A DNA stretch of 64,000 nucleotides from Rhea pennata (lineage: Eukaryota > Chordata > Aves > Rheiformes > Rheidae), in contig NC_084678.1 of assembly GCF_028389875.1 (NCBI RefSeq), forward strand, positions 17,142,899 to 17,206,898. The letters are read 5' to 3'. Position 1 is the first letter of the stretch, and each line of letters opens with the position of its first letter. Below are positions 25,980 to 51,500 of this stretch, one piece after another. The notes under the pieces were generated by a model. The model was given only the letters and a program-made list of their open reading frames with translations. It made no database searches and had not been told where the DNA came from. The position numbers and the translations under genes are program-made.

Positions 25980-34227
<8,248 letters not shown>

Positions 34228-40442: not shown

Positions 40443-40562
40443 ATGGAGCGGCAGGTGCTGGCGCTGGCTCTCTGGCTGGCGCTGGCCACGGCGGCCGCGG
40501 CGGACTGCGCGGCCCGGTGCTCCGCGTGCGCCCAGGACTCGGCGGAGAGCATCCGGCCCCTG
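40443..40562 (+). CDS. PDYN: PDYN signal-peptide exon
   Basis: Forty codons, ending AUCCGGCCCCUG/GTGAGT with a strong donor. The exon itself begins at 40425 after CCCTCCCCAG. It carries the signal peptide and the first three cysteines. An in-frame ATG at 40394 (MGCACC) lies before the acceptor and is intronic. Confidence 0.88.
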
Positions 40563-41270
40563 GTGAGTGCCAGCGCCCAGCAGGCACCGGGCGTTTCACG
40601 GAGTGGGGAAAAATAGTGGCGGGTGCACGGGTTCCCCCGTGGCCGGCGCGGCTGCCCCGCTCCGAGCCGCGTGCTAACGCTGCGGGCGCCGCGGCGCGCG
40701 CCGGCCGCTGTGTTGCAGATGTGCCTGCTGGAGTGCCGCGGCTCCTGGCCGCCCGGCACCGGCCGGGAGCCGTGCGGGAAGGCGCCGGCGCTCCCGGCCC
40801 CGCTGGCGGCGCTGGCCGACGGGACGGAGCCGGCCCCGGCGGAGGCGGCGGGCGAGGACGAGGCGCCGGCGGAGCTCGGCTCGGAGAAGCTGGCGCGGGA
40901 CGAGCTGCTCTTGCTGCTGCGCGCCGGCGCCGCGAGCACGACACACGGCGGCGGCAAGGCGGGCGAGCGGGCGGCCTCCGCGGAGGTGCGGGACCTCCCC
41001 GCGCCGGAGGGTCCCGGCGGCCCGGCCACGTGCCACGGGGGCTTTCTGCACACCTACCCAAAACGGAGCTGGGCGCCGGGGGCCGCGGGCGCCGCGCCGG
41101 TGCCGGCGGAGCTGCACAAGCGCTACGGCGGCTTCATGCGCAGGATCCGGCCCAAGCTCAAGTGGGACAATCAGAAGCGCTACGGGGGGGCCCTGCGGCG
41201 GCAGTTCAAGGTGGCCACACGGGCCGACGAGGACCCCAGCGCCTACTCGGGGGAGGTCCTGGACCTATAG
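40443..41270 (+). CDS. PDYN: Prodynorphin (opioid peptide precursor)
   Basis: Coding exons 40443-40562 and 40719-41270 join in phase 0 to give 223 residues, against 254 in human. A signal peptide (residues 1-20, hydrophobic core [16 protein letters not shown]) precedes the six cysteines typical of opioid precursors (22, 26, 29, 42, 46, 59). Dynorphin A is residues 176-192, [17 protein letters not shown], flanked by Lys-Arg on both sides. The dynorphin B position (195-207) reads [13 protein letters not shown] and so lacks Phe4. The alpha-neoendorphin position (about 146-155) reads [10 protein letters not shown] without Tyr1 and without the upstream Lys-Arg. The tail [14 protein letters not shown] matches the family C-terminus. 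The ATG lies 18 bases inside the exon, after a CTCCCCAG acceptor. The product is secreted and its peptides act on kappa opioid receptors. The gene is head-to-head with STK35 and tail-to-tail with SIRPA. Confidence 0.93.
40719..41270 (+). CDS. PDYN: PDYN main exon with opioid peptides
   Basis: It starts after GTGTTGCAG with [10 protein letters not shown] and ends at TAG. It holds the last three cysteines, an acidic/alanine-rich spacer and all the peptide positions. Very high GC; the spacer is short compared with mammals. Confidence 0.92.
41034..41063 (+). other. PDYN: Degenerate alpha-neoendorphin position
   Basis: Residues [10 protein letters not shown] stand where mammals have YGGFLRKYPK. 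The preceding two residues are Thr-Cys rather than Lys-Arg, while the following Lys-Arg is kept. Without Tyr1 and the upstream cleavage site, no opioid peptide can be released from here. Confidence 0.8.
41124..41174 (+). other. PDYN: Dynorphin A peptide (Met5 form)
   Basis: [17 protein letters not shown], identical to mammalian dynorphin A except Met for Leu at position 5. Lys-Arg flanks both ends. The internal Arg-Arg could give Met-enkephalin-type fragments. Confidence 0.95.
41181..41219 (+). other. PDYN: Dynorphin B position with Phe4 replaced by Ala
   Basis: [13 protein letters not shown]. The fourth codon (41190-41192) is GCC instead of a Phe codon, needing at least two base changes. 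The Lys-Arg before and the Arg after are intact, so a peptide is probably still cut out. Phe4 is essential for opioid receptor binding in this family, so it is probably not an opioid. Confidence 0.85.
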
Positions 41271-41854: not shown

Positions 41855-41860
41855 AATAAA
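41855..41860 (+). terminator. PDYN: PDYN poly(A) signal
   Basis: AATAAA 585 bases past the stop codon, inside a pyrimidine-rich GC-rich stretch where the hexamer is unlikely by chance. Confidence 0.7.
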
Positions 41861-45311: not shown

Positions 45312-45566
45312 TCACTTCCTCTGGATCTGGACACTGGCATACTCAGAGCTGGCTTCCTCTGGGCGAGGGGCAGGCCTCTTGGGTGCCTTGCTGAGATGAA
45401 CCATGTCCAAGTCAGCATAGGTGAGGTTGTCATCAGTGGCAGGGGCTTGGTTGGTCTGGATGCAGGCATACTCGGATTGCTGACTCATCTCAATGATCCG
45501 GCGGACACTCTTCTTTTCTTTGTCAAAGTTCAGGTCCGCATAGGTCAGGTTGTTGGGATCAGACTC
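45312..45566 (-). CDS. SIRPA: SIRPA cytoplasmic ITIM exon
   Basis: 84 codons plus stop, after a TTGTGCAG acceptor, phase 0. All four ITIM tyrosines and the proline-rich APKRPAPRP segment are here, ending IQRK. Confidence 0.93.
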   Translation of the reverse strand, partial: ESDPNNLTYADLNFDKEKKSVRRIIEMSQQSEYACIQTNQAPATDDNLTYADLDMVHLSKAPKRPAPRPEEASSEYASVQIQRK

Positions 45567-48500
45567 CTGCACAAGATAAGAGTTTCTCTTCTGACAGGGC
45601 CAAGGGAAATGGAAGTTTCCTCATCCTTGCCATACATGCCAACCCAAACCACCAGAAGAGCTGATTCCACTTTGGCTTGACCTGGGACAACTTGGTTTCT
45701 CTACTTGTAGAATGAGGAGGAGGCCAGCAGCAGACTAGAACGATCTGGATGCAATGCCTTCTCCCATTCTACATCTTCAGCAAATTACCCGGTCCAGTAG
45801 CAGCAATGGCTAGTTTGAAGCTAACAAGAATCACTGGCCAGGATCTTACAGAGATGCCTCCTGCAGATGAGGCTCAGAGGAGGACACCAGATTCTGCAGT
45901 TCGTTGTGCTGTGAGGGCCCCACGGCTGCCACCACCGTTACCCTGTGGGTGTCCTTGAGGTTGCCAAAGGTATCACAGTCTGGGCCACTCAGGAATGGGA
46001 GAAGCCTGCCCAGCAAGAGCAGCTGCATGCCACTTACATGGGAGCCAGCAGAGGCTGGATGGGATGGACAGATTGCTGCTGATCGCGACATTGCTCATAA
46101 TTGCGTCACCAAATGCAAAACAACTCCACAAATGCTTCCTTGGCTATTGCAGAGCTGGTTTTAGTCATAACAAACCCAGACTTCTCTGGGAGAAAGGGGA
46201 GAGGAGACAAAGGCAGAAAAGATAGTGGGATCTAGCTATCCCCAGCCCAGGCGTGTTTTTTCCTTCTCAGCCACAGCTGAGTGACCCTTAAATGTTTCAT
46301 GCAAGAATCACCAGGCTCTGCTCCAGCATCTGGTATTTTTCTGGTTATTCTCCCCTCCCTAGTTCCAAGAGATAAGCTACACACCTGGGTAGCTGTTCCA
46401 CTACTCTTCTCTGGCTCATGTAACCTGGAAAGGGAAAACAAATCAGATCAATTAAGTGCCCTGTTGCCTCTTTATAGTGGCAGAGCAGCCAGCGGACAGC
46501 TCCCAGACCTGATTCAGACAGGAAACAAGGTCCTTCCAACAGTGCCACTCAGTTGAGTGGTTTGTGTCCTCACTGGAGAGGATTTGCTCACTCAGCTGGT
46601 CTCCTTCCTTACAGCCACATTTCTGCAGGCTGGGGACTTAGCTCCCATCTATTTGTTCAGCCTTACCAAAAGCTAAGCATTTGGGTGCGAGGTCACCTAG
46701 TGAGCAGGGAAGATGGAGGCTCAGTCATTGGTCTTGCAGAGTTCAACAGTTCTGTGGCAGAGCAGCTTCCTGGGAGACCAGCCGCCAGACTAGAAGCTGC
46801 ATGGCTCCTAGTGTGAGATGTCTCCCACATGCTGCTTCTTCCAGGAACCTGGGCTCCCACCTGTTCTTTCACAAAAACTTTGGGGATCTAGCTCTGCTAG
46901 CCATGAGAAAACACCCTCTTCTCATACCTGTAACCTTGTCCAAGCACAAGAAGTGACTTCAAGAAGCAAGTACTTGGGAGAGATGCCTGGGGAGCAGACC
47001 ACACTGCCAACGAAGCAGTCACATGGTGACATTAGCTGGGCTCCTTGCAAAGTTGTGATCCCAAAGCACCCTCATGTCCAGACTGAAAACGTCCGGTTCA
47101 TAGCACCCTCAGATAATTCAGTGATTTGGTGAATAGAGAAATCAGCACTTACCTAACAGATGGGGAGCTTTTACCTGCCAAAAGATAAATATTTTAGGAA
47201 ACAAAGTAACCCCCAAGTACCCTCAAGGCATGTGAACACATGTGCACAGACTGCTGCAAAAGCAGTTACACATTTTTTTCCAGGGGCATTTTTCTGAAAT
47301 TTTACTTCATCACTGCAGAACTTTTCATGGTAGAGGACAGATCATCTAGGGCGGCATTAGATGTTTTACATAGATTTCATGCAAAAGGAATAAAGAACAT
47401 ATATGACACTGCTACTGAAAGCCTAGTTGAACAAGTCGAACAAGTGCAGTAGCAGGCCAGGAGGCTGGTCCTGGCAGTATCAAAACTCCAAGACATCTTA
47501 TCAGAAGTCCTCAATAAGATTAAAATTAATGACTTCCTTCCTACCCTTCTTGAACATATCCAGGCCTGAGAGGCTCTAGGATAAGGCAGAGGGAGGAAAG
47601 ACTCATTCCTGGCATCCCTCCTGCTCTTTCCAACTACTTCACTTCCTTCTCCTCAGCTTCCCCTCAGGATTAGGTATCAGGCAACCTGGAGACCCTGACT
47701 GTTGCAGGAGAAAGCAGTAGCTCTGGTTGCAGGAACCCAGTATGCAGCCAGCCAGGACCTTCTAGAAGCCCTGGGAAGCCCATCATAGTGAATGGCACCA
47801 CACTGAGCTTAATGAGAAAGTCTTGCTGCATCTGAGGGTGCTGGCAAGAGCAGCACAGCTTGGGGCACAGTTAGAGATCAGGTCTGGTAGAGCAACACAG
47901 GTAATAGCAGAAAACGTCAGTCCTGAAGACCATGAATGCTGTTCTGCTCTGCAAAGCCAATCTGAACTTGTGGCTCTAGTCAGGTTTCTCAGGCATCAGA
48001 TCTCCACAAAGCACTGCATTTGGCAGGTGGCAGCACTAGGCAGAGGTTCCCCCAGCAGCGTGCAAACAATCTGTTCAACTCTGCTCTGCCATCCCCTTTC
48101 TCCAGGAGCTGCACTACTACTGCCATGAGTTTTAGAGTCAAAGCACTGACACTTGAGGAAGAACAGGGTGGAAAGCAGCTGCTTTTCCTGCCATGCTTGA
48201 TTTCCTTACCTTTGCTCTGTTTTGCTCGGATGAGGTAGAGAATAGCAACCACCAGCAGTGCCAGCACAGTGCAGATCACTCCCACTGCGATGTATATGAG
48301 GATTAAATTGTCTGAAATGAGAATAATACAATACAGATGCCACCATAGGTCTGCAAATGCTGGCACTGGCATGACTGTCTGCATCTTTACAGCTGGTGAG
48401 AATGAACTTCCCTGTTTCCTTGCTATGTCTCGCAGCATAAAGGGGCTCAAAAGCTGCACCGTTCCTGGGACAGACAGCTCCTTGGCTTTTCAGGGCCTGA

Positions 48501-51500
48501 AAACTAGCCCCTGACATGGGGCCATGCAGAACTGGGTGGAAGGCTCAGCTGGACACAGCAGGTACAGGAGCCATTCTGGCAAATTTGGTGCCAGGCCACC
48601 ACTACAGTGCTGTGCCTAATAGGAGAAGACCTTTGCGGGGTAGGGGGTGACACCTTGCCTGCTAGGGATGAGAATTCTGGTCCCAGCAGCATCCACCCCC
48701 ATACGGAAACAGGTTTTACGTCCTTAAATCTGCTGGCGGTGGGTGGGATGGGCTGGTCCTGCCAGGTTAGAGCCACGGCGCCCAGGCCCAGGACTCAGCA
48801 CTCACAAGGCCTGGTTGCCACCTCTTGAATTCAACAAGCCTGCGGGCCCTGAGGAGCCAGGCCTTAGTGAGCACGGGGCGGGCTCTGTGCTGCTCTTAGG
48901 ACAGCAGGATGAAGGGCACGCTTGGGAGAAGGGCTCAGCCTGGTGGGAGCTCTGCTCCCGACGGCTGCATCCTGCACGGGTGCCAGATCTTGCCTAGCCT
49001 GCGTCGTAACGGGAGCAGGGCAAGGAGCAGCTCAGGATGAGGCTGAGAGAGCAGGAAGCGGGGCACGTTTGAAGCTGGGCAGGCTCTTATCGTCCCGTGC
49101 AGGGTTCTGGTGGGACTGAGCTTTCTCAGGAGGACAAGAGCAAACAACCGCCTCCTCAGGGACCGCGCCTCCACGGCCAGCGGCAGGCTCACGCTCACCC
49201 TTGTTCGCGGTGGACTGGTTACTCGGTCCCCCGTCAGCAGCCGGCAGGACGATCTGCAGGGTCACAGTGCTGCTGGCGGGGCTCTGGGAGTCGTGCACCA
49301 CCTGGCACGTGAACACAGACTGATTCTTCTCCTCCGTCGCTTGCACTTCCAGGAGGCTCTGTAGCTCAAACGTCCCCTGCGAGGTCTCTGTTGGGCGCGG
49401 GGGGCTGCCCACGTTTGCCTCCGTCCCGTTTTCCAGCCAGGTGAGGGTCAGCACATCTGGATAAAACCCTTCCACACAGCAGGTGAAGTTCACGGTCTTG
49501 TTCAGCTCCACGGGGTTTGGCGGGTCAGCGAGCACGCGCACAGTCGGGGACACTGCAAAAGGAAGAAGCGCTCAGCGCCCAGCGTCCGCCCGGCTCCGCA
49601 ACCCGACGCCGGTGTCTGCCCAGGCCCCCTGCCCACAACGAGTCCTGCCCCTCGCCCTGGGAGTGCGATGCTCCGAGCAACGGTGCTCGCCGAGCCCTCA
49701 CCTCGCACAGCGTCGCTGAGGTTGTACGTCTTCACCAGCGGGGCTGTCAGAGTGGAGTGCTCGACCACACAGGAGAGCCAGGAGCGGATGTCAGCAGCCT
49801 CCAGGGTCACCTCCGCCGTGCTGCTCATGTTGTAGTTTGTCTGCCCAGCGGTGACCTGGGGCTGCGGGGCTGTCAGCGGGGCCCCGTTTTTGAGCCATTT
49901 CACAGTGATATCTTTGGGGAAGAAGCCTGCGGCTGTGCAGGTGAAACGCACCGAGCTCCCTGGCGCCACTCTGTGCTCAGGCCCAGACATAGCCATTGAC
50001 GCAGGGCTGGCTGTGGGGAGAGGCATTGACCCATCGGGGCAGGCTCTCTACTCCCCACAGCGCCCTGACCCCTGGGGCCACAGAGCTCTGGGGCAAGAGG
50101 GAAGCAGGGTCTCCCGCAGCAGGTGGAGTGCTCTATGCTGGGGGGGACAGACACTGCCATGAGCACAGCTGGGGAAGGGCCCTGCATGACATCCCCCTCC
50201 CAGTGGGCCATTCACGGAGCAGAACCAGGCAGCAGCAGCAGCTTCGGACTGGATTGGGGAAAGCGGCTTTGCACAGCCTGTGCCCCTGGCTGCCAGGCAG
50301 CTCTCCGGGGGGATCCCCTGATCTGCCCGGGGCACCTGCTTGCTCCTGTTGTCAGCAGGGAACGTGGCCTGGGCAGGGGAGGGGTACGCAGGGGCCCGCC
50401 CCTGGCCCCCGCTCATCCTGGGACCACAGCTGGCCACGACAGGGCAGCTGTGCTCGGCAGGGCTGGTTCCCAGGTGGGAGCTGCTCAGGGAGCGACAGGG
50501 CTGAGAGCGCCACTCACCATGCACAAGCACGTTCGTGCCCTGTCCCGACATATACACCTTATCCTGCTCTCCTTTCTGAAACTTCACACAGTAATAGGTC
50601 CCAGCATCCTCGATTTGAACATTGCTGATGCGGATGCTGTAATCTGTGTTGGACTGATTCACCACCCTCGTTACGCGGGAGAAGGAGCCTTTATCTTCAT
50701 AAACGGTCCGATTCACCTTGTCCTCAGCCTTCAGCCACTTCACAGGTCCTACTACAGTGGCTTCAGACACGGTGCAGTTCAGGGTGAGCGTCTGCCCCAC
50801 GGATACTGTCACCTCCCGCTGGGGCTGCTGCAGCTCGTTCTGAGCATCGGCACCTGGAGCAAAACCAAAACCCGTTACGTACCCCCCAAACGCAGGAGGG
50901 GCTCTGTGGCCCTGATCTCAGTAGAATTCTCCCTCAGTAATTGCCCACCCAAGTGTCAGGCTCTTCGCTTGCCTTCAGAGCCCTCTCCAGCATAGAACCA
51001 GCAAGGTTGGAAGGGACCTCTGGAGATCATCTAGGCCAACCCCCCTGCTCAGCAGGGTCACCTGGAGGATCAGAGCCCTGCAAAGCTCCCACTGCCATGC
51101 TCGGGCCTACTGCAGTGCAGCGGGGCCAAATTTACAGGCATGCACAAGGTTGTTAGCAGGGATTGCGGGCAGCAGGACTGGCCCAAAGTCCCGGGCCAGC
51201 ACTCCAAAGCAGGTGAGCCTGTGGTAGAGGTTCAGCTTATATGAGCAGGCACAGAGCTCAGTTCGACTGCAGGCCTCAGCAGCGAGGTTGAGACAGCTGC
51301 ATCTTTACTGAATGACAGCGCCTAGTACTCCGTACAGCCAAAACATCAAACAAATCCCAGCTGCTGAATCGTACTGGCATGCCCTGCTATGTCCCATGTC
51401 ATGGGCCATCCTTCTTGATCAATCAGGAGGGAACAAGGTTATAAAACACAAAACTCTCCTAAAGCAAGCTCTCTTCACAGATGTGGCTATAATACCACAT

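Follow-up and report, generated by a model that had tools for sequence, protein, structure and literature searches.

Across vertebrate classes, dynorphin A and dynorphin B are described as remarkably conservative (PMC10280075). The closest described counterparts of the peptide reported here are chicken dynorphin B (rimorphin), YGGFLRRQFKVTT (PMC6308189), and human dynorphin B, YGGFLRRQFKVVT (PMC7305236), both of which occupy the same slot after dynorphin A and follow the same Lys-Arg. A degenerate dynorphin B is on record in monotremes, reading YGASRPRPFKPVT in the platypus and YGAVRPRPYKLVA in the echidna (PMC10280075, section 17), so loss of the dynorphin B core is not unprecedented. More broadly, relic or degenerate cores of prodynorphin (PDYN) have been described in birds and mammals (PMC10280075, PMC2865548), and the loss of a single core from a working precursor is recurrent. 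For chicken and other birds, section 16 of PMC10280075 gives three enkephalin motifs plus one degenerate motif; its Table 2 lists two Met-type motifs, one Leu-type motif and one degenerate motif, and the paper calls avian neoendorphin markedly different. The gene itself was reported absent from the chicken genome in two papers of 2010 (PMC2865548, PMC2873334), and chicken PDYN was shown from mRNA in a 2023 review (PMC10280075).

Here we analyzed a 64,000-nucleotide stretch of the Rhea pennata genome, hereafter the window, which occupies 17142899-17206898 of the 18.7-Mb contig C16 and carries a PDYN gene whose dynorphin B has Ala4 and Ala12, whereas the chicken and human peptides have Phe4 and either Thr or Val at position 12. 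As in the monotremes, the opioid message is lost in a slot that is still present. However, the monotreme peptides are altered at positions 3 and 4 and in the Arg-Arg address, while here only Phe4 of the message has changed and the address is intact. The locus also differs from other degenerate PDYN cores in that the slot affected is dynorphin B, one of the two peptides singled out for their conservation (PMC10280075). Our favored explanation, held with moderate confidence, is that this is an ordinary avian PDYN in which the dynorphin B message was lost by a real Phe4-to-Ala replacement in a dispensable or redundant core.

An intact PDYN gene with YGGA in the dynorphin B slot

PDYN lies on the forward strand of the window. 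Coding exon 1 (40443..40562, +) contains the ATG, the signal peptide and the first cysteines of the opioid-precursor domain, and it ends at a GT donor. The intron (40563-40718, +) has GT/AG ends, and the PDYN criterion that we applied to it was taken from PMC2865548. Coding exon 2 (40719..41270, +) runs from the AG acceptor to a TAG stop and encodes the remainder of the opioid-precursor domain, a spacer and the opioid slots; an AATAAA polyadenylation signal is located at 41855..41860 (+). The product has 223 residues, with 20% Ala and 11% Gly, and its N-terminus matches the opioid-precursor domain (Pfam PF01160) at 31.6 bits, the cut-off being 23.5. Thus, the PDYN gene is intact here, with an open frame, splice sites, domain and polyadenylation signal.

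The expected architecture is also present: dynorphin A, Lys-Arg, dynorphin B and then a leumorphin-like tail. Human big dynorphin is identical to the corresponding stretch at 29 of 32 residues. Of the 29 residues in the C-terminal stretch, 21 coincide with those of human leumorphin (PMC7305236), whereas the best of 20,000 random 29-mers, drawn with the composition of the first 173 precursor residues, reached 7 matches; the resemblance is therefore not due to chance. Within this stretch, the tail after dynorphin B (41223..41267, +) shares 9 of its 15 residues with the tail of human leumorphin.

The dynorphin B slot (41181..41219, +) translates into 13 residues whose message is YGGA, the YGGF message being absent from the amino terminus. 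Its codons in the one assembly used are TAC GGG GGG GCC CTG CGG CGG CAG TTC AAG GTG GCC ACA. Codon-by-codon translation confirmed the central claim of the original prediction, that Ala (GCC, 41190..41192, +) stands where Phe4 is expected, and the accompanying claim that at least two base changes are needed (TTY to GCC) also holds. The flanking cleavage sites were said to be kept, as we found on both sides: Lys-Arg at the dynorphin A/B boundary (AAG CGC, 41175..41180, +) and a single Arg 3' of the peptide (CGG, 41220..41222, +). Judging from these sites, Ala4 dynorphin B would presumably still be released from the precursor. A second substitution, Thr12 to Ala relative to chicken, leaves 11 of 13 residues identical to the chicken peptide and as many to the human one, and the three basic residues are the same in all three. 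DNA patterns resembling YGGF (up to two mismatches) were no commoner in the window than expected (102 against 131), so a lone motif is uninformative, and it is the gene context that makes the observation secure.

The precursor carries a further altered slot at 41028..41066 (+), which we take to be that of alpha-neoendorphin by comparison with the mammalian peptide. It is broken: His stands in place of Tyr1 and Thr-Cys in place of the dibasic site upstream, while the downstream Lys-Arg is kept. Dynorphin A (41124..41174, +) is intact, with Lys-Arg on each side and residues 1-16 equal to those of chicken dynorphin A (PMC6308189), and it provides the sole YGGF in this precursor. By the count in PMC10280075, the precursor would be without two cores that other birds keep, a comparison of totals in which the slots are not matched one to one. 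Part of this loss may be shared with other birds, since the avian neoendorphin is the one called markedly different (PMC10280075).

The surroundings of the gene were also characterized. To the left lies a protein kinase exon (25983..26693, -; Pkinase, 2.2e-40), which from its position and motifs is probably STK35. To the right is a SIRP gene (45315..50917, -) with a V-set frame (50051-50917), a C1-set frame (49035-49571) and a tail frame (45315-45620); its best PDB chain is SIRP alpha (7.3e-24), and the tail frame contains NLTYADL motifs that we read as ITIM-like, the only Pfam match there being a sub-threshold one to SIT. A kinase and SIRP flanking PDYN may reproduce the human gene order. A 300-base query against the bird's own 1.27 Gb assembly (180 contigs), in search of a second PDYN copy, matched the window alone. 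We also rejected an intact PDYN paralogue, as the three matches of a protein query were the two PDYN exons and PENK on contig C2. No RNA family reached its gathering score in the window, and of 21 pattern matches in a search for relatives in viral_contigs, none was confirmed.

The opioid system elsewhere in the genome

The other opioid precursors retain their cores. All seven YGGF cores of PENK are intact, POMC keeps KR-YGGFM in beta-endorphin (the one core looked at), and PNOC is identical to the query at 36 of 36 residues across the nociceptin region (again the one core looked at). For PNOC, a first query with the chicken C-terminal peptide gave no match, and the nociceptin-based query succeeded. 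Together, nine of the nine cores looked at in PENK, POMC and PNOC are intact, and we therefore rejected the idea that opioid genes are damaged throughout this assembly.

The kappa receptor (KOR) has three open exons. Its loss was considered and dismissed: the TAA within the exon 1 match belongs to the GTAAGG donor. Ten of 12 presumed pocket positions are identical to the human receptor; the other two, Ile294 and Ile316, are Val. With intact cores and an open kappa receptor, the opioid system is present in this species, and its cores are not generally corrupted in the assembly.

Two side observations were made in these genes. Position 118 of the kappa receptor (G000:C2:131285848-131286219) is Glu, and the human residue is Val; this residue sits where TM2 meets the extracellular side, close to the ligand pocket. 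In POMC, the beta-MSH slot (G000:C3 near 128388652, -) reads GTRRFRWQEPPKDKR, with the core RFRW after a Gln/Glu tract. The usual beta-MSH core is HFRW. In the same exon, ACTH, gamma-MSH and beta-endorphin retain their cores.

Sequence context of the Ala4 codon

PDYN sits in DNA of unusual composition. Its coding sequence has 77.5% GC and a GC3 of 0.96, and the interval from 40.4 to 41.4 kb has 77.8% GC, against an average of 43% in 10-kb stretches sampled at 17 places along this contig. Among these samples, which span 0.5 to 16.5 Mb, none of the 170 one-kilobase bins reached 70% GC; beyond 16.51 Mb, the window is the stretch sampled. Between window positions 33001 and 43000, nine of ten one-kilobase bins have at least 70% GC, with a maximum of 83%. 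High GC may be the reason why chicken PDYN was missed.

This composition bears first on whether the Ala4 codon is real, as the assembly or its consensus could have miscalled a GC-rich run of G and C that truly encodes Phe4. A run of seven G (41184..41190, +) extends into the first base of the codon; it is followed by three C and is the sole run of G or C of at least six in the PDYN coding exons. The surrounding region has 78% GC, and position 4 belongs to the best conserved portion of dynorphin B. However, gaining or losing one G would shift the frame, and yet the frame runs through the conserved tail to the stop; what an error would require is two adjacent substitutions rather than an indel. 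The nine intact cores mentioned above, among them that of POMC, whose exon is comparably rich in GC, also speak against it, as does the Thr12-to-Ala change, which lies outside the run. Consequently, we consider an assembly error unlikely, although a seven-G run in DNA this rich in GC leads us to reserve a small share of probability for it.

Composition bears second on how the replacement could have arisen. The shortest paths from Phe4 to Ala and from Thr12 to Ala consist, under the genetic code, of A/T to G/C changes only, and a T/A to G/C change would be expected under GC-biased substitution in a strong GC island. Two observations temper this idea. YGGFM survives in the POMC stretch despite 71% GC and a GC3 of 0.93, so GC pressure by itself is not enough to eliminate a core. 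In addition, GC-biased gene conversion (gBGC) in birds is reported to raise synonymous AT-to-GC substitution much more than nonsynonymous substitution (PMC6389324), and this makes GC bias less convincing as the cause. Thus, we regard GC-biased substitution as a contributing idea and not as a demonstrated cause of the Phe4-to-Ala change.

Function and history of the altered peptide

An alanine scan of adrenorphin found Phe4 to be crucial both at the classical opioid receptors and at ACKR3, where only Trp was tolerated at position 4; these data concern adrenorphin at mammalian receptors, and not dynorphin B at the receptor of this bird (PMC7305236, section 8). For the KOR-dynorphin complex, the part of PMC10246719 that we drew on names only main-chain contacts for Phe4. 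By analogy with adrenorphin, free Ala4 dynorphin B should be silent at the classical opioid receptors and at ACKR3, and the scan supports the original prediction's proposal that the free peptide would not be an opioid agonist (PMC7305236).

Big dynorphin, the uncut form comprising dynorphin A and B, is a different matter. Its amino terminus is that of dynorphin A and still begins with YGGF here, so it should remain active even though its B half lacks the message. In an arrestin assay, the EC50 values at KOR were 19.1 nM for big dynorphin and 12.7 nM for dynorphin A, so the two activate this receptor about equally well (PMC7305236, Table 1, with the column order deduced from the text). Reasoning by analogy, we infer that big dynorphin with Ala4 in its B half would still act at KOR.

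Our favored explanation, a real loss of the message in a dispensable or redundant core, would then work as follows. Free dynorphin B would still be cut out of the precursor and would be inactive at opioid receptors, and the kappa signal would be carried by dynorphin A and by uncut big dynorphin. The loss of Phe4 would be tolerated owing to the redundancy provided by dynorphin A, big dynorphin and the enkephalins. Persistence of the basic tail RRQFK may reflect either a recent change or a continuing role of the tail in big dynorphin and leumorphin. That 11 of the 13 dynorphin B residues are unchanged argues against a long neutral decay of the peptide.

The same conservation could instead be read as a sign of selection for a new function, and the original prediction had suggested that dynorphin B may have gained a non-opioid role or may be early in decay. 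We found no evidence for such a role. It is rather improbable that a single residue change converted dynorphin B of this lineage into a basic peptide that is released but not opioid, with processing and address kept; this would be a natural uncoupling of message from address inside a working precursor. Equally, we doubt strongly that the Ala4 peptide has been selected as a non-opioid, or that a non-opioid action of big dynorphin explains why the basic tail of the peptide is retained. The retained cleavage sites, charge and 11 of 13 residues are consistent with such a switch, and truncated dynorphins have recorded non-opioid actions (PMC7305236). However, a recent change would preserve the sequence equally well. 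Moreover, the obvious candidate receptor, ACKR3, needs Phe4 in adrenorphin, which removes it as an easy non-opioid target. To our knowledge, there is no established target for non-opioid dynorphin B.

The change might also be old and clade-wide, in which case dynorphin B would long have been non-opioid in this lineage. Palaeognaths differ from many neognaths by one dynorphin B residue, which the section of PMC10280075 that we drew on leaves unnamed. Among single-chain bird alpha globins in the PDB, the alpha-A globin of this genome, joined from three exons, had its highest scores, by slight margins, against chains taken to be from ostrich (270.6 bits), goose (268.3 bits) and emu (268.0 bits); six rows of engineered alpha chains of double length (283-285 residues) ranked above these and were set aside, and margins of this size do not place the clade. 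Nevertheless, the peptide described here differs from that of chicken at two residues and not at one, and we consider an ancient, shared Ala4 improbable. A full-text search for the exact 13-residue Ala4 sequence returned no paper, and broader literature searches, which did not ask for Ala4, indicated no such bird. The string YGGA has no occurrence in the main text of PMC10280075, whose avian alignment sits in the supplement.

Finally, a whole PDYN gene decaying towards loss, as its single remaining YGGF, compared with the three intact motifs and one degenerate motif of birds (PMC10280075), and its Ala- and Gly-rich product might suggest, is very improbable, because the frame, the splice sites, the opioid-precursor domain, dynorphin A, the C-terminal tail and the polyadenylation signal are all intact.

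If the Ala4 codon were an error, this locus would be a caution on single-codon readings in GC-rich bird genes. If it is real, the opioid message of dynorphin B would have been lost while its address and processing sites stayed, within a working precursor, and this species would offer a natural test of the extent to which the kappa system needs dynorphin B at all.
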